This document shows positions 50,788 through 64,000 of a stretch of DNA of 64,000 bases, one piece after another; the first letter of the stretch is position 1, and each line of letters begins with the position of its first letter. Made by a program: the position numbers and the translations under genes. Under the pieces are notes generated by a model that was not told the DNA's origin, did not search any database, and saw only the letters and a list, made by a program, of their open reading frames with translations. Source of the DNA: an uncultured Acholeplasmatales bacterium. GTDB taxonomy: Bacteria; Bacillota_I; Bacilli_A; Acholeplasmatales; Anaeroplasmataceae. The stretch covers positions 62,001 to 126,000 of the forward strand of contig CALUXS010000004.1 of NCBI GenBank assembly GCA_944324805.1. Reading direction: 5' to 3'.

Positions 50788-52347
50788 CTAGGATTTTTTG
50801 TATTTAAAATTACTCCAAGAAATCTTAGAATTCTTATCACTTTTACCTGTAAGAGCAATAAAAACACCTGTATGTGCATCATTTAAATCAGGAGATATCG
50901 ATTTTCCATCTAGAATTTTTTCATACTTCTTACCATCTACAAATACACTAAATAAATAGTCTTGATCATTAGCACTTATAATTGTTTTAAAATCATTACA
51001 ATCTACTAAATAAGAAGCAAAACTTCTATAATTTCCATTATAGTTTCTAACGAAGCTAATTAAATTTTTATCATTACTTTTAGTTATTTCAACCCCGATA
51101 TATGTATTATATTTCAAGAAACATAAAATTGCCGCTACATCGTTATCATGAAAATCTATTAATGATAAATCTACACTAGAATTAAATTTCCAGCTTGTTT
51201 GTCTAACACCAATGAAGCTATCTTCATATGTATTTAATAACTGCATCATTATATTATTTTTTCTTACCAATGACACATTATCCTTAGTAGCTTTTTTTAT
51301 TGTACACCACTTTATTTTTAACGATTCATTAGAAAAATTTATTGGTACATCTTTTTCCACTTTTTCAACTAAACCCTTAGGAGCGTCATAGCTAAATTCT
51401 AATTTACCTGTAATAGGACTCAAAAGAGGACTTATATCATCAGGCCAAACAACAGGAAAAATAAATGTTTCACGTCCTAAATTTCTATAATAACCACCAA
51501 ACGTATATTTAACATTAAACCCATTATAATAACCGCCTCTTGGTCTAGAGGCTAAGCATACACCATACCATTCATGGTTTTTTAGTTCAACTAAATCTGC
51601 ATGTCCTACATTTTGAATTGGATGTGTTTTTAACAAATTTTTATGAGTTAATAATGGGTTTCTTACTGAGCCCTCATATGGTCCAAAAATGTTTTCACTT
51701 CTAGCCATAGTAACAGTATGATTATGAAGCGTACCGCCTTCAGCTATTAATAAATAATAATATCCATTTCTTTTATAAATATGAGGACCTTCTGGGAAAA
51801 GACCACCCGTACCATTCCATATTGAATACTTTTTACCAATTAACCTATGTTCGTCTAACTTTATTTCTTGAATCCATATTTCCGTTTTTCCACCACCAAT
51901 TCCACTATCACGATTGGCAATAAAATATGATTTACCATCATCATCAAAAAATAATGAACTATCTATACCATAAGCATCTTTTATAAAATGACATTTGCTC
52001 CATGGCCCTTTTGGGTTCTTACTTTCACATATAAAATGGTTATTACCCCAATCATCACATTCCTTTGGAATTCTAGTAGATGATACATAAAAAGTTCCAT
52101 CATTATATCTAATTGTTGCTGCCATCACTCCACCTGAAGGATTTACATTGCTTAGATCAAGACCTTGTTCTTCTCTATCTATTACATTGCCAATTTGCTT
52201 CCAGTGGACTAAATCACGAGAATGCCAAACAGGAATAGCAGGATAGTATTCAAAGGTTGAATTAACTAAATAAAAATCATCTTCTACTCTAACTATCGAA
52301 GGATCTGGATAAAAACCTGCAATTATAGGATTTCTAATTTTTTTCAT
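50788..52347 (-). CDS. GH43 beta-xylosidase/arabinofuranosidase
   Basis: 519 residues. The five-bladed propeller (about 1-310) begins N-P-I-I-A-G-F-Y-P-D-P-S-I with the catalytic base Asp. The pKa-modulating Asp is in Y-G-I-D-S-S-L-F-F-D, and the Glu acid is probable in F-P-E-G-P-H-I-Y. A C-terminal beta-sandwich (about 325-519) of the beta-xylosidase C2 type is present. No signal peptide, so it acts on imported oligosaccharides. Specificity between xylose and arabinose is not decidable. Last gene of the GH36-GH31-GH43 operon. Confidence 0.93.
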   Translation of the reverse strand: MKKIRNPIIAGFYPDPSIVRVEDDFYLVNSTFEYYPAIPVWHSRDLVHWKQIGNVIDREEQGLDLSNVNPSGGVMAATIRYNDGTFYVSSTRIPKECDDWGNNHFICESKNPKGPWSKCHFIKDAYGIDSSLFFDDDGKSYFIANRDSGIGGGKTEIWIQEIKLDEHRLIGKKYSIWNGTGGLFPEGPHIYKRNGYYYLLIAEGGTLHNHTVTMARSENIFGPYEGSVRNPLLTHKNLLKTHPIQNVGHADLVELKNHEWYGVCLASRPRGGYYNGFNVKYTFGGYYRNLGRETFIFPVVWPDDISPLLSPITGKLEFSYDAPKGLVEKVEKDVPINFSNESLKIKWCTIKKATKDNVSLVRKNNIMMQLLNTYEDSFIGVRQTSWKFNSSVDLSLIDFHDNDVAAILCFLKYNTYIGVEITKSNDKNLISFVRNYNGNYRSFASYLVDCNDFKTIISANDQDYLFSVFVDGKKYEKILDGKSISPDLNDAHTGVFIALTGKSDKNSKISWSNFKYKKS

Positions 52348-52368
52348 AATAACTCCCCTAATTAAAAA

Positions 52369-54390
52369 CTATAATTTAATTATCGTTTTTTCTTCATTAG
52401 CTACTATTTCATATTTTTTAATTTCTGAATTTATATACTTTCCATCATCTAAAAAATATTCATATTTTGCTGTTGGATTTACATTAGCAATTGCAATCAA
52501 ATCAAGCATATTTAACTTACTTGTAGAATTTTTTGGTTCGGTTAACAAAAGCATTTTACCAGGAAGAATAAAGACTAAAACCTCAAATAATTTTACGCTA
52601 ATGAAATGATGACCCTTTGACATCTTTTTAGTATCATAATCATTATAACCTCTAAATCTCACTAAAAGCATATCTTCTGGTAAATATACATACCTTTTTG
52701 TCGTATTTGGTTTATAGACAGGAGCAATCATAATAGAATCACCTACTATCAATTCATCTTCAATCTCAAGACAGCACTCATCATTTTGATATTTTAATGC
52801 CAATGGTGTGAATAATAGGGTGTTATTCTTTAATGCTTTTAAATATTCACTATATAAATATGGCATTAATGCATATCTTAATTTTATTAGATTACTAAAC
52901 TCCTTAGGATTTGAGAAATTATATAATTCTTGATTTCTTGTTCCTATTGAAGAATGATTTCTAAATAATGGCGTAAATAAAGAAAATTCTAACCATCTAC
53001 AAACTAATTCTCTAGTGGCATCACTACCAAATCCACCTGTATCGGCACCTGAATACAAGAAACCAACCATATTCAAATTAGGCATCATTTTGATATTTAA
53101 CTCTAAGTGGCTCCACCAAGATCTATTATCTCCAGTCCATATTCCGCTATAGCGATGCATACCAATACATGATGAACGAGAAATTAAAAACATTCTTTCC
53201 TTATAGTTTTCCTTAAAATACTCACTTGTTCCCTTTACCATATTGTATCCGTAAAGGTTATGAACATCATAATGATTAAGTTTTTTATTTTCAACTACAT
53301 GATACATATCCTTATAATCTAAGATATTATTGGCAAGCTTTTCAAAATTTCCTAACAATGCCCAATAATCATATACATTTAAATCAAGTGTATCCTTTGT
53401 TTCTTTTACTGCTTTGATAGCTATTTCTAAACGTTTAGGTGTATAAAATATTGCTGGTTCATTCATATCATTCCAAAAGCCATCTAGTCCTAAGGAAATT
53501 AATTTTTTATAGTGACTACCAAACCACTTACTAGCATTAGAGTTTAAAAAGTCAGGAAAATGTACTAGACCAGGCCACACAGATGCTATAAAAGGATTAC
53601 CATTTTCATCCTGGCAAAAATAATTATTTTTTATTCCCTCTTCATATACATCATATCCACTTTCAATTTTTACACCTGCATCAATTATAGGTATTAAATG
53701 AATTCCTTTTTGTTTCAAATTTGCTATAAAATCTTTCAAATTAGGAAAAGCTTCACTATTAATTGTAAAATCTTTGAACCTCTCCATATAATCAATATCT
53801 AGATAAACAGCATCTAAAGGAATATCATTTTCCTCATATTTATCCACAACATTTTTTATATCTTCTTCGTTTTTATATCCCCAACGTGATTGTTGATATC
53901 CAAAACCATAAAGAGGAGGTAAATAGCTTTCTCCAATTAATATTCTAAACTCCTTTATTATATCTAAAGAATTCTCACCCTTTATGAAAAAACAAGCTCC
54001 ATTCCATTCTTCCATAGTTATTCTAATAAGATTACTATCAGTGAAACCAACATCAAAAGTCACTTTACTAGGAGTATCAAAAAATAAAGCAATTGGGTTA
54101 TCACGATGAATTAACAAAAAGTTATGTGCCCCATATAAACTTGGTGATTCTTCAAGATGCATTACAACATCACTACAAAAGCTTGAATAAATGCCTCCTC
54201 TTTTATTCATTCCTCTTGTACTCTGACCAAGTCCATATACTACATCCCTAGGATTTAGGTTAATTCTAATTTCATTATTTTCATAGATTATTTCTTGTGG
54301 TAATTCTTTAACATCATTATAATTATTTCCAACAATTGTATTAGTTTCAATGATTTTTTTAGCAAAAGAATACTTATAAATAATAGCCAT
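52369..54390 (-). CDS. GH31 alpha-glucosidase/alpha-xylosidase
   Basis: 673 residues, cytoplasmic. D-G-F-W-N-D-M-N-E-P-A (nucleophile Asp) near residue 308, Y-L-D-I-D-Y-M near residue 193, and W-T-G-D-N-R-S-W-W (acid Asp) near residue 413 mark the active site. It removes terminal alpha-linked glucose or xylose. It lies 2 bases from the GH36 gene and 21 from GH43. The three together suit hemicellulose or mixed oligosaccharides. Confidence 0.94.
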   Translation of the reverse strand: MAIIYKYSFAKKIIETNTIVGNNYNDVKELPQEIIYENNEIRINLNPRDVVYGLGQSTRGMNKRGGIYSSFCSDVVMHLEESPSLYGAHNFLLIHRDNPIALFFDTPSKVTFDVGFTDSNLIRITMEEWNGACFFIKGENSLDIIKEFRILIGESYLPPLYGFGYQQSRWGYKNEEDIKNVVDKYEENDIPLDAVYLDIDYMERFKDFTINSEAFPNLKDFIANLKQKGIHLIPIIDAGVKIESGYDVYEEGIKNNYFCQDENGNPFIASVWPGLVHFPDFLNSNASKWFGSHYKKLISLGLDGFWNDMNEPAIFYTPKRLEIAIKAVKETKDTLDLNVYDYWALLGNFEKLANNILDYKDMYHVVENKKLNHYDVHNLYGYNMVKGTSEYFKENYKERMFLISRSSCIGMHRYSGIWTGDNRSWWSHLELNIKMMPNLNMVGFLYSGADTGGFGSDATRELVCRWLEFSLFTPLFRNHSSIGTRNQELYNFSNPKEFSNLIKLRYALMPYLYSEYLKALKNNTLLFTPLALKYQNDECCLEIEDELIVGDSIMIAPVYKPNTTKRYVYLPEDMLLVRFRGYNDYDTKKMSKGHHFISVKLFEVLVFILPGKMLLLTEPKNSTSKLNMLDLIAIANVNPTAKYEYFLDDGKYINSEIKKYEIVANEEKTIIKL

Positions 54391-54392
54391 TT

Positions 54393-56567
54393 TTATTTTC
54401 TCACTTTCTTAATTTCTAAACATAACGAATCATAGTCAATAATAGGTGCTTTTATTGGTAAACCTATTTGCATCAATTGTAGTCCAGAATAAACTTTATT
54501 ATCAATCTTGTAATGTCCAATCTTATCTAATCCCTTTAATCGAATAAATATTTGAGGAGCCGCTACTTTTATTTTAGTAAAGCACACATATAATAATCCT
54601 GAATTGCCAAATTGAAATTGATAGCTTGTATAAAAATCATTTTCATATGGTGAGCTCAAACGATAGTAATTACCATTATAGATAATTTTTCTATGCTTAA
54701 CATATTCTTTAATTTGATTTTTTATTTCCTGCTGCTCTAATTTACTAAGCTTCAATAAATCTAATTCATATCCGAAGGTACCATGACTTGCTACAATCCC
54801 TCTAGTTTTTAATGGTGTAACTCTACCTGTTTGATGATTTGGTGCTGCTGATACATGAGCTCCCATTGTTCGAATTGGGTAGCCAAATGATGTGCCATAA
54901 TGTATAAATAAACGCTCATAAGCATCAGTATTATCACTAGTCCAAATTTGTGGTTCATAATAAAGCATACCTAAATCAAAGCGTCCTCCGCCTCCACTAC
55001 ATCCTTCTATAATTAAATCTGGGAAATCAGTTGTTAAACGTTCTAATAACTTATATAATCCTAAAACGTATCTATGTAATACCTCTCCTTGTCTTTCTAT
55101 AGGTAAATTATTACTAAATACATCAGATATACTTCTATTCATATCCCATTTTATGTATTCTAAATTAGTTTCACTAATAATTTTAGCCATTTTGTCATAA
55201 ATATAATCAATAACAGCATCATTACTTAAGTCTAACACCAATTGATATCTACTTCTCATTGGTTCTCTATTTGGTGCCATCAATACCCATTCTTTATGTT
55301 TTTCATATAAATCACTTTTTTCTGATATCATTTCTGGTTCAAACCATAAACCAAATTTCATACCAAGATTATGAATTTTATCTACAAAACTTGATAGTCC
55401 ATTAGGGAATTTATCAGTATTAACTTCCCAATCTCCTAAACCACTAATATCACTTAACCGATTTTTGAACCAACCATCATCCATAACTAACATCTCTATT
55501 CCGAGAGATTTAGCTTTTTTAGCTAAATTTAATAGTTTTTCTTCTGTAAAATCCATATAAGTTGCTTCCCAATTATTAATTAAAATTGGTGAATAATAAT
55601 CTTTAAAACGTGGATTAATTAGATGCTTAGAAATTGCCTTATGCCAATTATTAGTAAGTGATGAAAAGCCTGCGTTTGAATAACTAAAAGCGACCTCTGG
55701 AGTATAAAAAGCTTCATTTGGAGCAACATTATATCTAAAACCTTCTGGGCTTATTCCTATAGCAATTCTAATTTGGTCATAAATATTTCTTTCAATATGA
55801 AATAAGTGGCTTCCACTATATACTAAACTAAAGATATAGGCTTCTCCTTTATCCTCATTTGCATTTTTTGATGCTATTATGACAAAAGGATTTTGCTGAT
55901 GTGAAGATGTTCCTCTATTACTACCTATTTCATATGCACTATGCTTAATAATTTGTCTTTCTAGCATTCTTTCTTTAACATGGGCCCCGTAAAAGCTTAG
56001 TAGCTCATATTCTTCATTAGCCTGCATATCAAAACTAACACTCATTGCTTTATCTAAAATTATATTTTCTTTTGTTTTATTTAGAATAATTACACTTCTT
56101 GTAATTAAATCATTTTCTGGATAAATACTATATAAAAGTTCAACATAAATATCCTTATATCTATCTTTTAAAACAACTTTTAAACATTCGTTTGTCTCTC
56201 TAAAGCATGGCATTCCTTTTACTTTAGGTTTTGTTTCTAGTATTTCATATCGATAAAAACGTAAATCAACTAGTCTAGAACCATCGTTATTTATTATGCC
56301 TAATGCGCTAAATCTAAAATCCCCTACACCTGTTGAAGGATATTCCTGAGGCATCAAATCCATCGAAATATTTCTAATCATTTTAGCATCGTAGCATACT
56401 CCTGAAAAGCCTTGTTCACGAGGAATAATAACATATGACATATCTTCATCAAATAATCTTGGACCGTAATATAAATGATATAGATATCCAAAATCACCAA
56501 CCTTAAATTGATAGGTTGTATTTTTTGTATTTAAAGTAAATAAATTTTCTTTTACAATTATTGGCAT
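54393..56567 (-). CDS. GH36 alpha-galactosidase
   Basis: 724 residues, normal for cytoplasmic AgaN/RafA. The nucleophile is in Y-I-K-W-D-M-N-R (near residue 475) and the acid is in P-Q-I-W-T-S-D-N-T-D-A. E-G-C-S-G-G-G-G-R-F-D sits between them. It releases alpha-galactose from raffinose-type sugars or galactomannan fragments. First gene of its operon; AGGGGGT precedes the ATG. Confidence 0.96.
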   Translation of the reverse strand: MPIIVKENLFTLNTKNTTYQFKVGDFGYLYHLYYGPRLFDEDMSYVIIPREQGFSGVCYDAKMIRNISMDLMPQEYPSTGVGDFRFSALGIINNDGSRLVDLRFYRYEILETKPKVKGMPCFRETNECLKVVLKDRYKDIYVELLYSIYPENDLITRSVIILNKTKENIILDKAMSVSFDMQANEEYELLSFYGAHVKERMLERQIIKHSAYEIGSNRGTSSHQQNPFVIIASKNANEDKGEAYIFSLVYSGSHLFHIERNIYDQIRIAIGISPEGFRYNVAPNEAFYTPEVAFSYSNAGFSSLTNNWHKAISKHLINPRFKDYYSPILINNWEATYMDFTEEKLLNLAKKAKSLGIEMLVMDDGWFKNRLSDISGLGDWEVNTDKFPNGLSSFVDKIHNLGMKFGLWFEPEMISEKSDLYEKHKEWVLMAPNREPMRSRYQLVLDLSNDAVIDYIYDKMAKIISETNLEYIKWDMNRSISDVFSNNLPIERQGEVLHRYVLGLYKLLERLTTDFPDLIIEGCSGGGGRFDLGMLYYEPQIWTSDNTDAYERLFIHYGTSFGYPIRTMGAHVSAAPNHQTGRVTPLKTRGIVASHGTFGYELDLLKLSKLEQQEIKNQIKEYVKHRKIIYNGNYYRLSSPYENDFYTSYQFQFGNSGLLYVCFTKIKVAAPQIFIRLKGLDKIGHYKIDNKVYSGLQLMQIGLPIKAPIIDYDSLCLEIKKVRK

Positions 56568-56600: not shown

Positions 56601-56628
56601 TAAGAAAAGCCTCAGTAAAACTGAGGCT
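56601..56628 (-). terminator. Terminator after the metallophosphoesterase gene
   Basis: AGCCTCAG (56608-56615) pairs with CTGAGGCT (56621-56628); TTTTCTT follows on the minus strand. Confidence 0.8.
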
Positions 56629-56646: not shown

Positions 56647-59223
56647 TTAATATTTGAATGTAAAGACTGCGTGTCCTTGACCATCTTTAACAACATCACA
56701 AACATCGCCACCAAAAATACCTATTTGATTAGCACCATTTGAAATTCTACCATCCATAAAGCCCATATTAGCTGGTTCATCTTTTGTAGTGAATGTCTTA
56801 ACAAAGCTTTCTTGAACTACATTTAACCATTTTGAACCATTCTTTAAATCAGGAACCTTACGATTATTTTGATAAGTATCAGGAGTCAAGCTTACACCAT
56901 AAGTTAATCTTAAATTGCCTGTGAATAATACTTCATAGCCAAAGTCAAATGTTAAAACTTTTTCATTAACTGTTAATGTGAATAAACCTTTTGATTCAAC
57001 ATTTGTAAATACTAAGCTAATATCATATTTTGAATCAAATTTCCAAACACCATTTGCTTTATCCCATGTTGCATAACCAACAGTATCACCATAAACACGT
57101 TCTCCCATATATGCTTCTGCCATACCGCCATTTAAAGCAACTACTTCAGAGAATAGTTTAATATCGCGCTTAGTACCATCTGCTAAATCCTTTGTAGATT
57201 CAACTGTACCAGCATCAAATGAAATACCCATTATAACATGACTATATTTTGCAGATGCTCCACTTGCATCAGCATTATTTTGAGCACCTAACCAAATTTC
57301 AGCTCTTACAGGTTGATTTGGATTCTTTGAAGGAGATATTGTAGATGAAGTTAAATCATATACTGCTTGCATCTTGTCATATCCGCCACTATTATCTGCC
57401 CAGCTTAAATATTGTGCTGTTGTTACACCTGCTTTATAAACTGAAGCACGCCAACCTGTCCACATTCCATCTGGATCTCCTGATGGATGATATCCACCTG
57501 AACCATCTGTATTTGTAGTTTCAAAATCTGCAGGACGTGCAAAGAACTTACCAATATTCTTTTCATTTCCGCTTGCTTGGAACATCATACTAGCTAAACC
57601 TTGAGTATGAATCTTTAGATCAGATTCATAATTTTGATACCAACTAAATTGTCCATTTGTAACTTTTCCTGTTGAATCAAAAGCATCTGATAATCCATTT
57701 TCATCAAACCATGCATAAGATTTACCATTAGTTCCACCATAAACTACATCTGCTTCTTCTCCGTTAGAAACAACTTTAATTGTACCATTTAATTGTCCTA
57801 AAACATATAATTCATCTAAGGCTTCATAAACACTACGGAAATTACCTAGCAATGTTCCATCTTCACGATAAGCATTAAATGTATTTACTGCTTTAACCTC
57901 AATTTCTACAGTTACTTTAGTATCATTTGGTCCTGTAATAGTTACATTTACCTTACCTGCTTTTTTACCTGTTACAAATAAAATGTTATTCTTTAATTCT
58001 TCTTGATTAATCTCTACAATTCCTTCTTCATCAACACTAGCTGTTAATGTGCCTTCCATATTAGATAAAGTTAATTTAGCTTCAAATGTGTCATCTACAT
58101 AAATTGAACCGCTTGTCTTATCGATTGTTAATAAAGGTTCATTTATGGCTTCAGTTGTGAATTTAAAGTCTTTATCAAATGTATAAAGATATGATCTTCT
58201 TGGTAAATCATCATTTTTAAAAGTGTTAGAATGTCCTGTTTGAGGACCAAAGCCAAGAATTACACCTTTATAATTAACTTGGAAACCATAATTGTGGGCA
58301 TGACCAACAATAATAGCTTTAGTACTCTTCTTTTCAATACATGCATCTAAAATACCTGCATCCTCTGTTGCTGCACCATTTTTAATTTCTTCAATTTCAG
58401 CTTCCGTCAAATCTTCTTCAATAACAAATTGTGCATCTTCCTTTCCTTCCTTAGCATCCTTATATGCAGTATAGAATTCAGGAGTTTGCATATGTTGGAA
58501 TAAAACTGTAGGAACAACACTTCCATCTACATATGCTTCTTGAAGTTTATCAATTTCTTTTTTATACCAATCAACTTGTTCATCAGTTACTGATTGATAT
58601 TTTGCAGCACTATAGTCATAAATACCTGAATCTAGGAAAACAAAAGCGCCTCTTATTGTATCGCTATCTTTTTCACGAACAGCAATTGAGAAATTGCCAT
58701 ATCTAAAATCATCTTCATCAACAAATCCAGAACGATACATTAAATAATCACTATCTTTTGAATGCTCTTCTAATTTCTTTGATAATACACCCTTTGTCTT
58801 AGCATCCTCAGCATCATGGTTACCAAAAACAAATGTCCATGGTGTTTGAAAACTATCCATCAAACGAATAAATTTAGTTAAACCTGCATCACCTGTTGAT
58901 AAGATATTATCTCCACCACAAACAATGAAATCAGGCTTGCCATTTTCCTTATAGTATTCTAAATACTTTTTAGTTAACTCTTCTTTTCCATTATGATAAG
59001 GCTTTTGAGGATCACCATAATGTAAATCTGTCCACTGTGCAACCTTTAAATTTGCCCCTTTTTCTACCTCAATCTCTAATTCAAATTTTTCAGGGTCAGT
59101 TGGATCTGGATCAGGGTTTGGATTTGGGTTAGGATCAGGGTTTGATTGATCCTTTTTACATCCTGATAGCAAGAACACAGCTGCCATAAAAAATGTCATT
59201 AAACCTACAAAAAACTTTTTCAT
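56647..59223 (-). CDS. Secreted metallophosphoesterase lipoprotein
   Basis: 858 residues. Signal peptide, lipobox L-S-G-C and a Pro/Asp-rich linker are followed by a calcineurin-like domain (about 58-350): W-T-D-L-H, C-G-G-D-N, F-G-N-H-D-A, F-Q-H-M-Q and V-G-H-A-H-N give the full set of metal ligands. A Big_2-type Ig domain follows (about 365-450), then a long beta-rich domain of unknown type (about 455-858) with N-G-Q-F-S-W-Y and G-M-A-E-A-Y-M-G. It hydrolyses a phosphate ester outside the cell. It is last of the 56.6-64 kb cluster. Confidence 0.9.
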   Translation of the reverse strand: MKKFFVGLMTFFMAAVFLLSGCKKDQSNPDPNPNPNPDPDPTDPEKFELEIEVEKGANLKVAQWTDLHYGDPQKPYHNGKEELTKKYLEYYKENGKPDFIVCGGDNILSTGDAGLTKFIRLMDSFQTPWTFVFGNHDAEDAKTKGVLSKKLEEHSKDSDYLMYRSGFVDEDDFRYGNFSIAVREKDSDTIRGAFVFLDSGIYDYSAAKYQSVTDEQVDWYKKEIDKLQEAYVDGSVVPTVLFQHMQTPEFYTAYKDAKEGKEDAQFVIEEDLTEAEIEEIKNGAATEDAGILDACIEKKSTKAIIVGHAHNYGFQVNYKGVILGFGPQTGHSNTFKNDDLPRRSYLYTFDKDFKFTTEAINEPLLTIDKTSGSIYVDDTFEAKLTLSNMEGTLTASVDEEGIVEINQEELKNNILFVTGKKAGKVNVTITGPNDTKVTVEIEVKAVNTFNAYREDGTLLGNFRSVYEALDELYVLGQLNGTIKVVSNGEEADVVYGGTNGKSYAWFDENGLSDAFDSTGKVTNGQFSWYQNYESDLKIHTQGLASMMFQASGNEKNIGKFFARPADFETTNTDGSGGYHPSGDPDGMWTGWRASVYKAGVTTAQYLSWADNSGGYDKMQAVYDLTSSTISPSKNPNQPVRAEIWLGAQNNADASGASAKYSHVIMGISFDAGTVESTKDLADGTKRDIKLFSEVVALNGGMAEAYMGERVYGDTVGYATWDKANGVWKFDSKYDISLVFTNVESKGLFTLTVNEKVLTFDFGYEVLFTGNLRLTYGVSLTPDTYQNNRKVPDLKNGSKWLNVVQESFVKTFTTKDEPANMGFMDGRISNGANQIGIFGGDVCDVVKDGQGHAVFTFKY

Positions 59224-59236
59224 TTTTACCCTCCTT

Positions 59237-61114
59237 TTAATGTAAGTTTTTTTTCAAATGAATATTTAATATTTGTGACCAATATTCAAAGTCATTTAAC
59301 ATCCCGTAGACCTTTAACTCTTCTAAAATTTTCTTTAATAAAAGAATTTTATTTCCTCCTTCCATCTTTTTTAAACCATCAAATTGAATCAAAATGGCAT
59401 TTAAATTCAAACTATAAAGTTTTGATTTTAAATTTAAATCCAGTTTTATAGCCTCGATTATTCTTTCAATTTTATCATGTGGGCTGGCTAAGATATTTCT
59501 ATTGCTATAGTTATGTAAATAATCAAGATTTTCTTTACCTTCTAAGACGTTATTTATTTGGAAAATTCCGTATCCTAATGCTCCACTCTCATATAAGGCA
59601 TCAATTTGCTTACGAATTGTTGCTGTATTAGTTCCTGTTTGAATAGGCATTATTCCCGTATAACTGAAGGCATTATCACTTGCTACTCTTACTAAGTTTT
59701 TAGTAGACTTTTTAACTTCACTTTCGCCAATGTAATAAGCCATTGGGAAAATAAAATCTATTAGTCCTTCATTTACCCATGGTACCCAATCTTGCATTTT
59801 ATTTTTCTTCGCATACAAAATATCATCAACAACCGCCATCGAAATAAAAACGTTTTTATTTATTTTTTTAACTAAATCTCTTATTTCTTTTACTAGCTGA
59901 TTAATTTTACTAATTCGGTAATCTTGCCATTTTAAATATATTTCATCATTCTTTACTAGTTCTCTAATATCACCAGTTAATTTTTCTTTATTCATGAACT
60001 CATTAATGGCATACTTAGTATAGCCATTACTAGTTTCTAATTTATAATTGCCATGAGGATATCTAATATAATCAATATGTATGCCATCAAAGTTATATCT
60101 TGACAACATTTCTTCATATATACTTAAAATATAGGCATGACATTCTGGATTTGCAGGATCTAAAAATATAAAGCCATTTTCAACTAATTCGGCATTACCA
60201 TCCCCAGGTCCTTGAAAGGTAGAACCATCATAATTAACCATATGCCACGAATCATCGTACCATGATTTCCAATCTTTTTTGTTTTCACCAACAAAAAAAT
60301 TTTCTACCCAAGCGTGTACCTCAATATTTCTTTTATGTGCCTCTGAGATTACAGCTTTTAAATAATCATTCCCATAAATTCCATATTCACCACCTTTTAC
60401 TTCACTTGAATAATCTGTGATTTTAGATGGATACGGAACAGAACCATTGTAGAAGCATTCTAAATATATTCCTGTTATTTTTGCATAAGCTAGACTATCA
60501 AGCCTTGCCTCAATTTCAGCAAGGCTTTTTGATTGGGGACGTGCCCAAACATTAGTACTAGCTATTGTAGGGGAAGAAGAAAGGTTATTTAAAAATACTT
60601 CAATTTTTTCTTTTATTTTTTGATATTCTACTTCATCTTGTGTCATTAAAAATTCTATTTCTTTAATTCCATTTTTAACAACTTCAAGATCAAATATTTC
60701 ATAATTTTTTACTGCTTTTTCATATTTATCTTTCAAAAGCTTATAATTATAATTTAATTCACATTTTTTTATATGATTAAAGTCATTTGTAAGAACAAGG
60801 TTCTTTTCAACAAGTTCTATTTTTGTTCCTACATAAACATTTTCTTTTATAAATTCCATAGCTTTACCATTACCTGAAACCACAAAACCATCATTTGGAA
60901 TTTTTACTCTATCAGCTATTTCTATTACATACCCTAAAGAATTAACTGCAGCCTCCATTCCCCATGGATTAGTTCCTGTATAATTGTCTATAGTTTTATT
61001 TTTATAAGAAAATGTATAAACACAAAGCTGATCTTGTCCTCTAAAGCCAGGTATATCCTGCCATTTAGGGTTATCATCCTTACTTGGATTTATAAAATCT
61101 ATCTTGTATATCAT
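59237..61114 (-). CDS. GHL10 (DUF187) glycoside hydrolase-like protein
   Basis: 625 residues without signal peptide. The TIM-barrel part (about 185-500) shows V-W-A-R-P-Q, I-Y-L-E-C-F-Y-N-G, V-H-A-W-V-E-N, F-D-G-I-H-I-D-Y-I-R-Y-P and I-F-P-M-A-Y-Y. These are the signature blocks of the YngK/GHL10 family, related to glucanases; Asp in I-D-Y and Glu in W-V-E-N are catalytic candidates. The N-terminal 170 residues are unassigned. It starts 1 base before the NAGPA-like gene ends its frame. Substrate unknown. Confidence 0.88.
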   Translation of the reverse strand: MIYKIDFINPSKDDNPKWQDIPGFRGQDQLCVYTFSYKNKTIDNYTGTNPWGMEAAVNSLGYVIEIADRVKIPNDGFVVSGNGKAMEFIKENVYVGTKIELVEKNLVLTNDFNHIKKCELNYNYKLLKDKYEKAVKNYEIFDLEVVKNGIKEIEFLMTQDEVEYQKIKEKIEVFLNNLSSSPTIASTNVWARPQSKSLAEIEARLDSLAYAKITGIYLECFYNGSVPYPSKITDYSSEVKGGEYGIYGNDYLKAVISEAHKRNIEVHAWVENFFVGENKKDWKSWYDDSWHMVNYDGSTFQGPGDGNAELVENGFIFLDPANPECHAYILSIYEEMLSRYNFDGIHIDYIRYPHGNYKLETSNGYTKYAINEFMNKEKLTGDIRELVKNDEIYLKWQDYRISKINQLVKEIRDLVKKINKNVFISMAVVDDILYAKKNKMQDWVPWVNEGLIDFIFPMAYYIGESEVKKSTKNLVRVASDNAFSYTGIMPIQTGTNTATIRKQIDALYESGALGYGIFQINNVLEGKENLDYLHNYSNRNILASPHDKIERIIEAIKLDLNLKSKLYSLNLNAILIQFDGLKKMEGGNKILLLKKILEELKVYGMLNDFEYWSQILNIHLKKNLH

Positions 61115-61115
61115 C

Positions 61116-62531
61116 CTATTTTTCTACTACTAATAAGGTATTAATTACCTGACGTGACTCATTTAATGTGTAGGTTCCAAAATCTGAAGAACGTGTCCAT
61201 ACAGCTAATTCCTTATTAGGCTCCTTTACTAATAATTGTGATGAACCACCACCATCAAAGTTAGCACCCATTGCACAGCCATAATAACGCATTAATTCTG
61301 CAAGCTCAGGTAAATTTACACCATAGCTATCACTTTCACTTGTACTCTTGTGACCATATCTTAAAGCTTCAATTGAAAATACAACAACTGTACCATCAGG
61401 CTTAATTCCAACTGACGTACGAGGGATATCTGTAGTTTGTGCACCATTTGAGTTTTCTTTTGTGACTGTACTAGCAATATTCCCATCCAAAACCAATGCT
61501 TGACGAGCTCCTAAAACTGTTTCATAATGTTGCCACTTTTCTCCTTCAGAACTATTGTAATAAGCAACATATTGACCAACCTTAGCCTCAATTTCTACAT
61601 TTTCAGGAATCATAACATATAAATAGTTGCTATCAGCATCTAATTCCTCTTCCTTATGAGCATCTCTAATTTCTAAGATTTTTCCGTGCTTTACTACACC
61701 ACTTTTTAAATGTGAACGTTCAATCTTCAATAGCTTACCATCACGCAATGTAACTCGTTTATTATCAATAATATTAATAGTAGTTTTTCCTGTTGTAGAT
61801 TCGTTTAAATCAACTCTATCATAAGTAATTTTACTAGTTGAATTTAAATCAGGTTCATCTAAAAATGCAATCTCATAAATGAATCTAGTTTGAACTGTTT
61901 CTTTTACTGTTTTACCATCAACGCTTGGCCCTATTTGAGCTTGTTTGCCACTTGAAGAAATTCCAAATAACATTGGCATAGATGCTGGTAAATCAGCTGC
62001 AGGATCTTTATAGTCATAGACTCCGTTATCATTATGACTTTCTTTTATTATTGTTCCATTTTTTACAAAAGCATTAACAGGAAATGAACCGAAGAAATCT
62101 GCATTGACTGCTGCATATACCGTCTTTCCTTCATGCTTTTTTTCATACGCTGTTAGCATATCATATGGCGTTGCTTTACTTATTGAACCGACAGAATCAT
62201 TCTTTGTTCCTGCTTCAATAGAAACCTTATTAAGATCAACATTAATAGCTTGTGCGATTACATGATTTCCATTGTTTAAATTGAAATTTAAGGTTTCAAT
62301 AAAAGCACCATCTGCTAAAGTTGTCTTCTTAGCTACTTTATAGCTATTTTCATCAAAGAGTGTTGGAGTAAAACTGCCTAATTCACCATAACTAATCTTC
62401 GTAGCTGCCTCAGTTAATTCACATAAATTACATTTATCACTGTCTGGATCGGGACTTGGAATGTCTTTTTTGCAACTCACAAAGGCTAAAGAGGCTAATC
62501 CAATTAATGCCAACTGTACGACCTTTTTCAT
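61116..62531 (-). CDS. Phosphodiester glycosidase (NAGPA family) lipoprotein
   Basis: 471 residues with lipobox V-S-C (F-V-S-C). The NAGPA domain (PF09992) covers about 200-470. Its blocks are A-V-N-A-D-F-F (about 140), S-V-G-I-K-P-D-G-T-V-V and G-A-N-F-D-G-G-G-S-S-Q-L-L near the end, with the catalytic Asp. The mammalian enzyme removes GlcNAc from GlcNAc-1-P-mannose. Bacterial members cleave sugar phosphodiester linkages of exopolysaccharide or teichoic acid-type polymers. The neighbouring phosphoesterase and esterase support a phosphoglycan substrate; this is inferred. Confidence 0.9.
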   Translation of the reverse strand: MKKVVQLALIGLASLAFVSCKKDIPSPDPDSDKCNLCELTEAATKISYGELGSFTPTLFDENSYKVAKKTTLADGAFIETLNFNLNNGNHVIAQAINVDLNKVSIEAGTKNDSVGSISKATPYDMLTAYEKKHEGKTVYAAVNADFFGSFPVNAFVKNGTIIKESHNDNGVYDYKDPAADLPASMPMLFGISSSGKQAQIGPSVDGKTVKETVQTRFIYEIAFLDEPDLNSTSKITYDRVDLNESTTGKTTINIIDNKRVTLRDGKLLKIERSHLKSGVVKHGKILEIRDAHKEEELDADSNYLYVMIPENVEIEAKVGQYVAYYNSSEGEKWQHYETVLGARQALVLDGNIASTVTKENSNGAQTTDIPRTSVGIKPDGTVVVFSIEALRYGHKSTSESDSYGVNLPELAELMRYYGCAMGANFDGGGSSQLLVKEPNKELAVWTRSSDFGTYTLNESRQVINTLLVVEK

Positions 62532-62540
62532 AATTTCCTC

Positions 62541-63581
62541 CTATCTAAGCTTGTTAATAAATTCAACCAATTGCTTTGAAGCTAATTCATGCATTTTATA
62601 ACCAGGATGATGATTAGCTCCCATTTCATTACATGAACTCATATCAAACTTTAGTAAATAAATATTTTTATTTTTATATTCCTCTATTACTTCTAAAATA
62701 GCTTTTCTAACTGCAAAATGAAGTGGTACAAATTCAGTAGCAAAGATAATTTTTGTATTAGGATATTTAGAAAATAAATCATTTAAAAATGCCTTAATTC
62801 TCTTTTTCAAATTATTATGTTCAACTGCCATTAATGCCAAAATCTCATTAAAGCTCATTTCACTTTTTATCCAAGGGGCATCATAGTTAAACCAGCCATC
62901 GTCGTTAGCTCCTAAATTAACAATAACATAATCAGGAATATATTTTGAATTATCCCAATTAGGTAGATTTTCTAATGGCATCTTAGGAATATAATCAGCC
63001 TTTGAAACTAAATCACATACACTTTCTACAGGCTCGCTCATATTCCATATACCATGATAGAATGGATAACCACTAACAGCTACAACACTTACTAGCGCAT
63101 TTAAGCTCTTAGCTGTAAGTCCTACATATCCATCTATTACACTTTCTTGAATTGTTTTAAATGTCAAGTCCTTACTAGTACCTAAATTACCATATCCACA
63201 TGTTAATGAATCACCATAGAACTCTAATTTTAAACAATGACTTTCTACTAAAGGCTTATAGTTTTGTTCAGATATCATTTTTAAAGCAATACTAGAGACA
63301 CTAGATTCAGTGCGCTTATAAACTCTTACTTCATGATAATCTAAAGTAGAAAAGGTAACTTCTACTTCCTTAGTTAACTCATCTATTACTACATCTGTCC
63401 TAATGCTATCTTTATAAATAGTTATAACTGGATATGAATCGCCTTCAAATTTTGAAATTAAAGTAAGTGTTAATTTACTTCCAATAAAAGAAAAGCCAAA
63501 TCCAGAATGTGAAAAATTAAAATGTAATAAGTCATTAGATACATATGTTCTTCCATAAGTTGTTAATTTTGAAAAATCCAT
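62541..63581 (-). CDS. SGNH/CE2-like acetyl esterase
   Basis: 346 residues without signal peptide. An N-terminal jelly-roll (about 1-110) is followed by the SGNH domain. F-Y-G-D-S-L-T-C-G-Y-G (Ser) is near residue 123, V-N-L-G-A-N-D (Asn) near residue 218 and H-H-P-G (His) near the C-terminus. This two-domain order matches CE2 acetylxylan/glucomannan esterases. It probably removes acetyl groups from the glycan processed by the cluster. Confidence 0.88.
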   Translation of the reverse strand: MDFSKLTTYGRTYVSNDLLHFNFSHSGFGFSFIGSKLTLTLISKFEGDSYPVITIYKDSIRTDVVIDELTKEVEVTFSTLDYHEVRVYKRTESSVSSIALKMISEQNYKPLVESHCLKLEFYGDSLTCGYGNLGTSKDLTFKTIQESVIDGYVGLTAKSLNALVSVVAVSGYPFYHGIWNMSEPVESVCDLVSKADYIPKMPLENLPNWDNSKYIPDYVIVNLGANDDGWFNYDAPWIKSEMSFNEILALMAVEHNNLKKRIKAFLNDLFSKYPNTKIIFATEFVPLHFAVRKAILEVIEEYKNKNIYLLKFDMSSCNEMGANHHPGYKMHELASKQLVEFINKLR

Positions 63582-63590
63582 TGTCTCACC

Positions 63591-64000
63591 CTATTCATTA
63601 AAATCTATAACTGTACCATCTTTTAAACGACTCTCTTCAGCTTTTAGGCTCATTAAATGCGAAATAACTGAATCATGTAAAAGAGTAAGACTATCAGTTT
63701 TCTTATTATTTAATAGATAATCTAACAACTCATTGACCATAATTCTATCTCCACCACCATGACCTTCAAAATCAGTAGTTAGTTTATTTATATCAATTTC
63801 TTCTTTAGTGCCATCAAAATAGTTAACATATATCTTTCTTTCTTCAAAGTTTCCGATGATGTCAGCCTTTGTTCCAAAGACCTTAATATCACGATAGCAC
63901 CATCTAGAAAATGCATTCATTGTTAATGATGCAGTCGTATTATCTTCAAAGCAAATATTGACAATTTGATGGTCTACTACATCATTATCCATATCGTATA
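63591..64000 (-). CDS. Gfo/Idh/MocA oxidoreductase, C-terminal fragment
   Basis: Only the C-terminal part is inside the window; the frame continues beyond 64000 (two more codons, for Y-D, precede the first visible Met). D-H-Q-I-V-N-I-C-F-E-D-N-T-T-A-S-L-T-M and the late E-G-H-G-G-G-D are typical of the substrate-binding half of the family, which oxidises or reduces sugars with NAD(P). It lies 9 bases before the esterase gene and is likely in one operon with it. Confidence 0.85.
   Translation of the reverse strand, partial: YDMDNDVVDHQIVNICFEDNTTASLTMNAFSRWCYRDIKVFGTKADIIGNFEERKIYVNYFDGTKEEIDINKLTTDFEGHGGGDRIMVNELLDYLLNNKKTDSLTLLHDSVISHLMSLKAEESRLKDGTVIDFNE

Follow-up and report, generated by a model that had tools for sequence, protein, structure and literature searches.

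A candidate operon for uptake and catabolism of a phosphodiester-joined, N-acetylmannosamine-containing glycan in an uncultured Acholeplasmatales bacterium

Results

Five genes of the window form the end of a longer operon

The window (the whole 64,000-nucleotide stretch of DNA that was analysed, G000:C4:62001-126000) comes from an uncultured Acholeplasmatales bacterium and continues into the segment L003 (C4:126001-146000; L003 position + 64000 = window numbering). The original prediction had placed five co-directional genes, with gaps of 1-13 bases, at its right end. We observed that all five are present and tightly packed on the - strand, and the reading-frame coordinates confirmed the spacing (9, 9, 1 and 13 bases, in the order Gfo/Idh/MocA oxidoreductase, CE2-like esterase, NAGPA, GHL10, metallophosphoesterase). 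The family assignments also held, as judged by the Pfam scores and by the completed oxidoreductase. The genes are thus real, but they are not the whole locus. They are the promoter-distal 3' end of a same-strand run of about 18 genes (about 23 kb) that crosses the window edge and starts some 16 kb farther on, near L003:16027. The ABC permeases, ROK kinase and RpiR regulator looked for beyond 64000 were found in this same run. The genes are listed from the promoter side, followed by two features beyond the last gene.

L003:15212-16027, - strand: RpiR/MurR-type regulator, at the promoter end of the operon
L003:14198-15100, - strand: membrane protein, no Pfam match above cut-off
L003:13073-14188, - strand: MsmX/UgpC-type ABC ATPase
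L003:11735-13054, - strand: lipoprotein LP439, without known family; lipobox
L003:10209-11720, - strand: lipoprotein LP503, without known family; lipobox
L003:8489-10108, - strand: solute-binding lipoprotein
L003:7510-8475 and L003:6586-7500, - strand: two ABC permeases, LplB/LplC-like
L003:5476-6582, - strand: SGNH/GxDLY esterase
L003:3963-5483, - strand: DUF4127 protein (517 bits)
L003:3125-3982, - strand: ROK kinase, adjoining NanE
L003:2438-3121, - strand: NanE, ManNAc-6-P epimerase (NCBIfam NF002231, 265.4 bits, cut-off 189)
L003:832-2466, - strand: GH13, alpha-glucosidase-like
63591..64000, on to L003:829, - strand: Gfo/Idh/MocA oxidoreductase, C-terminal third in the window, complete in L002 (412 aa)
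62541..63581, - strand: CE2-like SGNH esterase, no signal peptide, predicted cytosolic (PF17996, CE2_N, 30.3 bits, cut-off 27.9)
61116..62531, - strand: NAGPA-type phosphodiester glycosidase, predicted lipoprotein (PF09992, 70.3 bits, cut-off 25)
59237..61114, - strand: GHL10 glycosidase-like enzyme, predicted cytosolic (PF02638, 115.3 bits, cut-off 27.9)
56647..59223, - strand: calcineurin-like metallophosphoesterase, predicted lipoprotein (PF00149, 41.0 bits, cut-off 21.5)
56608-56628 (L002:6628-6608), - strand: intrinsic terminator, 9-bp stem and T tail, 3' of the phosphoesterase gene, end of the transcription unit
54393..56567, - strand: GH36 alpha-galactosidase-like gene just past the terminator; accessory, possibly related

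Most of the operon genes overlap or lie <20 bases apart, and the two wider gaps (about 100-110 bases) follow the regulator and precede the solute-binding protein gene. Since the hairpin terminator comes directly after the phosphoesterase gene, the GH36, GH31 and GH43 genes that follow are probably part of a separate unit. These three glycosidase genes (window 50788-56567) encode no signal peptides and form a second tight unit. In relatives L130 and L091 the GH36 gene lies inside the DUF4127 cluster, and in L130 a GH31 homologue is placed there as well. Base composition gave no signal of a recent transfer of the locus (GC 0.30-0.31 vs 0.29 in the window). At L003:18590-19999, we observed an ApbE-like frame that contains a repeat, with one stretch of residues (MMVHHLINPKTGYPADIRD...) present at either end.

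Phosphodiester-cleaving enzymes are predicted outside the cell and the other enzymes inside

Among the operon proteins, a lipobox was found in the NAGPA, the phosphoesterase, the solute-binding protein, LP439 and LP503 only, while the remaining enzymes had no lipobox and no evident signal peptide. Of the five genes first described, two had been called lipoproteins, and these are indeed the NAGPA and the phosphoesterase alone. This distribution predicts that phosphodiester cutting and glycan binding take place outside the cell, and that de-esterification, glycosidic cleavage, phosphorylation and epimerisation take place inside.

NAGPA-type enzymes cleave sugar-1-P diesters. The operon NAGPA, the only copy in the genome, matched the solved bacterial DUF2233 protein 3OHG (E=5.8e-13), and its RTSVG (371) and DGGGS (426) motifs are intact. 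It shares the NAGPA domain and these motifs with 3OHG and with the human uncovering enzyme NAGPA; however, the identity is distant, and the operon protein is a predicted lipoprotein with an N-terminal region of its own. In the phosphoesterase, all five metal-site motifs are intact (DxH 66, GDN 104, GNHD 134, FQHM 242, GHAH 307). Residues 447-546 in its C-terminal part resemble LP503 (E=6e-5 to 8e-5), which suggests that the two may share a candidate glycan-binding module. The model of an LP439-type protein was poor (pLDDT 57, 4 sequences) and mostly beta, and the solute-binding protein had no solved relative by sequence.

On the cytosolic side, the GHL10 enzyme carries neither a signal peptide nor a lipobox. 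Its nearest solved relative is Cwp19 (5oq2, E=9e-8), the GHL10 lytic transglycosylase of C. difficile. The two share the catalytic domain family, but Cwp19 is secreted and wall-anchored, whereas the operon enzyme, lacking a signal, would act on imported oligosaccharides. The CE2-like esterase has intact active-site motifs (GDS, GAND, HHP), and its best NCBIfam match, AxeC2, reached 48.6 bits, far under the cut-off of 500. The ROK kinase carries the ROK zinc motif. It scored 118 bits against the N-acetylmannosamine kinase NanK equivalog, under the cut-off of 450, and slightly higher against glucokinase than against ManNAc kinase; it is classed as a ROK sugar kinase only. Enzymes of the families GH20C and GH84, common in related loci, did not turn up among the operon's genes.

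NanA and wall-synthesis markers were not found in the host genome

We further asked, by family searches, which sugar-catabolic and wall-synthesis genes are present in the host genome, a draft of 22 contigs (96% complete) in which failure to find a gene is strong, though not absolute, evidence of its absence. The host belongs in Acholeplasmatales, since a genome of its order (G205) has the same sequence as the Haploplasma modicum contig NZ_JHYB01000002.1. NanE is commonly taken to be a sialic-acid gene. No match to the NanA/DHDPS family (PF00701) was observed in the host, while 14 of 14 control genomes were positive. Since this lyase family is missing, a role of NanE in sialic-acid use is unlikely here, and a nan-type pathway was rejected on the same ground. 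NagA and NagB are both present, encoded by adjoining genes (NagB in an intact 242-aa frame), so that ManNAc-6-P made by the host can flow to fructose-6-P. The operon thus resembles nan/nag operons in its ROK-type kinase, NanE, RpiR-type regulator and a GlcNAc-6-P end product that enters NagA and NagB. It differs from them in that the genome has no NanA, the scanned operon proteins include no sialidase family, and NAGPA, phosphoesterase, GHL10 and DUF4127 are added.

MurC gave no match above cut-off in the host genome (a weak 32-bit match, far below cut-off, is probably the related FolC) and no match in seven sampled congeners. The transpeptidase PF00905 and TagA/WecG (PF03808) were likewise not found in the 96%-complete host genome. 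These absences fit a wall-less cell, and they bear on the possibility that the operon serves turnover of a wall or envelope polymer made by the organism itself (peptidoglycan or teichoic acid). Such a role would suit the GHL10 enzyme, as Cwp19, its nearest characterised relative, acts on peptidoglycan as a lytic transglycosylase (PMC6016235), and the phosphoesterase, as bacterial relatives of its fold act on teichoic acids (PMC11488536). However, the three wall markers are lacking, the operon GHL10 has no signal peptide, and the seven congeners that lack MurC also had no match to this NAGPA. We therefore rejected own-wall turnover as highly improbable.

DUF4127 is a candidate for the ManNAc-releasing step

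The DUF4127 protein had no mention in the open-access papers searched, and a PDB sequence search returned no solved relative. The model of its L130 orthologue was confident (pLDDT 92, pTM 0.93) and showed strands and helices that alternate many times. Searches by fold (Foldseek, VIA-align 2) gave weak and mixed matches (a TM of about 0.2 at best with Foldseek; a top Z of 8.5 across 122 residues, against unrelated proteins), which exclude no known family. Across 28 diverse sequences, many D, E, R and W residues were invariant, as expected of an enzyme.

The protein has no signal peptide and is the marker common to these loci, which makes it the best candidate for the missing step, the release of ManNAc. 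We put this role forward tentatively, and consider that it may well prove to be another; a different cytosolic step is possible. N-acetylmannosaminidase, too, had no mention in the open-access papers searched. In three loci from Bacilli (L037, L041 and L043), DUF4127 lies beside NanE, a PTS EIIC permease and a HAD phosphatase, an arrangement suggesting that it may act on phosphorylated sugars too.

DUF4127 is associated with NanE, NAGPA and GHL10 across Bacillota

In a survey of 296 Bacilli genomes from 165 genera, DUF4127 was present in 27 genomes and 22 genera. NanE was found in 21 of these 27 genomes vs 30 of the 269 others, NAGPA in 23 vs 79, and GHL10 in 22 vs 65 (Fisher 2e-13, 2e-8 and 5e-9, respectively, in tests that take related genomes as independent). 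NanE lay <=10 kb from DUF4127 in 16 genomes, and 4 further genomes had the two on one contig, about 18-25 kb apart.

The association was also observed in 75 DUF4127 loci of named organisms (Paenibacillus, Bacillus, Psychrobacillus, Solibacillus, Lachnoclostridium, Catonella, Acholeplasmataceae and gut Clostridia), 40 of which contained NanE, often directly adjacent. Recurring in these loci were ROK, RpiR, an ABC importer, an FAD oxidoreductase, GH20C hexosaminidase and GH84, along with cytosolic GHL10, SGNH esterase and a secreted NAGPA or GDPD. NAGPA or any phosphodiesterase was absent from 51 of the 75 loci, so that the phosphodiester genes may form a module that comes and goes between loci. 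The closest layouts (L130, L093 and L091) have LP503/LP439, the solute-binding protein, two permeases, SGNH esterase, DUF4127 and ROK in the same order. In place of the operon's phosphoesterase they carry a GDPD-family phosphodiesterase, apparently secreted where the N-terminus is complete.

Some clusters lack NanE. One of them (G204) is otherwise very similar, while in two others (G250 and G035) a GlcNAc 2-epimerase stands in the DUF4127 cluster (8bry, E=4e-86). NanE and GlcNAc 2-epimerase are unrelated enzymes that turn ManNAc or its phosphate to the GlcNAc form, and their exchange is the best indirect evidence pointing to ManNAc as the product.

These loci also bear on a rival explanation, that of a general-purpose locus for taking up HexNAc glycans from host or diet, such as mucin or N-glycan fragments. 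NanE and ROK would then salvage ManNAc freed from sialic acid by other gut bacteria, and NAGPA and the phosphoesterase would act on unrelated phosphorylated glycans. The family does occur in many gut-associated MAGs, and the GH20C, GH84, GH31 and GH36 enzymes of the relatives suit host glycans. However, a locus for free ManNAc would have no use for a NAGPA, a phosphodiesterase, DUF4127 and cytosolic esterases in the same operon. Genera without a tie to the gut, among them Paenibacillus, Bacillus and Psychrobacillus, show the association too, and the present genome has no NanA-family protein. We consider this explanation rather unlikely.

Two side observations concern GHL10. Four Acholeplasmatales genomes without DUF4127 (G178, G061, G070 and G137) share a separate, recurring neighbourhood in which large GHL10 proteins of about 1300-1400 aa are encoded about 10 kb from a NAGPA of 528-538 aa. 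In Bacillus-type loci, a signal-less GHL10-DUF4985 fusion adjoins NanE (L096:13157-14329), possibly a cytosolic GHL10 subfamily tied to ManNAc use.

The likely substrate is a ManNAc-containing polymer of other bacteria

The presence of NanE, ROK kinase and DUF4127 in one run points to a ManNAc-containing glycan. Judged from its genes, the operon is probably a complete uptake and catabolic unit for such a glycan, joined by phosphodiesters, and most likely a wall or capsule glycopolymer of other bacteria. Four observations speak against this reading: the better score of the ROK kinase as a glucokinase, the very similar G204 cluster without NanE, the many DUF4127 loci without a phosphodiesterase, and the lack of GH20C and GH84 matches in the operon. 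The original prediction, deconstruction of an acetylated, phosphate-linked glycan, fits the lipoprotein phosphodiester proteins, the two SGNH/CE2 esterases, the importer, and the NAGPAs and secreted glycerophosphodiesterases of the relatives; the phosphate recovery proposed with it found no specific support. Its example glycans can be narrowed to ManNAc-containing ones. Yeast phosphomannan is disfavoured, as Pfam scans of the operon proteins showed no alpha-mannosidase (GH38, GH76, GH92 or GH125).

N-acetylmannosamine, a rare sugar, occurs in secondary cell-wall polymers (SCWPs) and in the linkage unit that wall teichoic acids (WTA) have in common. Wall teichoic acids and other wall glycopolymers share, as a conserved murein linkage unit, β-ManNAc-(1→4)-α-GlcNAc-(1→P) on muramic acid C6 (PMC7831098). 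Digestion of glycerol-phosphate WTA by GlpQ leaves ManNAc-GlcNAc (PMC7086022), and Bacillus SCWPs are ManNAc/GlcNAc polymers with O-acetyl groups (PMC9487903). One candidate substrate would thus be the teichoic-acid linkage unit ManNAc-β1,4-GlcNAc-α1-P.

We infer the following order of steps. LP439, LP503 and the C-terminal domain of the phosphoesterase would hold the polymer at the surface, where the lipoprotein phosphoesterase and NAGPA would cut its phosphodiesters, the NAGPA acting on HexNAc-1-phosphate links, for example GlcNAc-α1-P-6-MurNAc. The oligosaccharide would be taken up by the LplABC-type ABC importer and stripped of acyl groups by the cytosolic SGNH and CE2 esterases. The chain would then be broken up by cytosolic GHL10, GH13 and DUF4127, probably with the oxidoreductase, and of these DUF4127 is the foremost candidate for freeing ManNAc. 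Finally, the ROK kinase would convert ManNAc to ManNAc-6-P, NanE would convert this to GlcNAc-6-P, and chromosomal NagA and NagB would lead on to fructose-6-P.

The same mechanism could equally serve a ManNAc-phosphate capsule or exopolysaccharide whose repeat units are joined by sugar-1-phosphate diesters, in place of wall teichoic acid or SCWP. The specificity of NAGPA-type enzymes would suit such diesters, and GH13/GH36 imply alpha-linked hexose decorations or backbone. However, the secreted GDPD-type glycerophosphodiesterases that recur in sister loci are better suited to glycerol-phosphate polymers, and as a replacement for the wall polymer we regard the capsule as distinctly unlikely.

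A wall polymer as substrate would place the operon close to the teichoicases GlpQ and PhoD of Bacillus subtilis, which serve WTA phosphate scavenging. The likeness would lie in the proposed first step, in which a phosphodiesterase outside the cell attacks a phosphate-linked wall polymer: the operon has predicted lipoprotein phosphodiester enzymes and the sister loci a secreted GDPD. The difference is that here a lipoprotein calcineurin-type phosphoesterase and a NAGPA are linked with the uptake of oligosaccharides and a predicted breakdown of ManNAc, and that no wall genes were detected in the host.

A broader proposal, which we offer with considerable doubt, is that DUF4127 founds a new family freeing ManNAc from non-sialic glycans (for example as a candidate β-N-acetylmannosaminidase on ManNAc-β1,4-GlcNAc), and that DUF4127, NanE, NAGPA/GDPD and GHL10 make up a widespread, unrecognised Bacillota pathway for eating the phosphate-linked wall polymers of other bacteria, a wall-less acholeplasma relative included. 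The reading of the operon given above, if right, would provide candidate enzymes and a marker family, DUF4127, for the catabolism of ManNAc-bearing wall glycans, would change how NanE is read in genomes without NanA, and would suggest that wall-less bacteria may have a niche as feeders on their neighbours' walls.

A last observation concerns oxidoreductive chemistry. In the DUF4127 locus L091 (15285-17684), the GDPD protein is fused to a PF06439 (3-keto-disaccharide hydrolase-type) domain, and this fusion, together with the Gfo/Idh/MocA and FAD oxidoreductases, gives a hint of keto-sugar chemistry.
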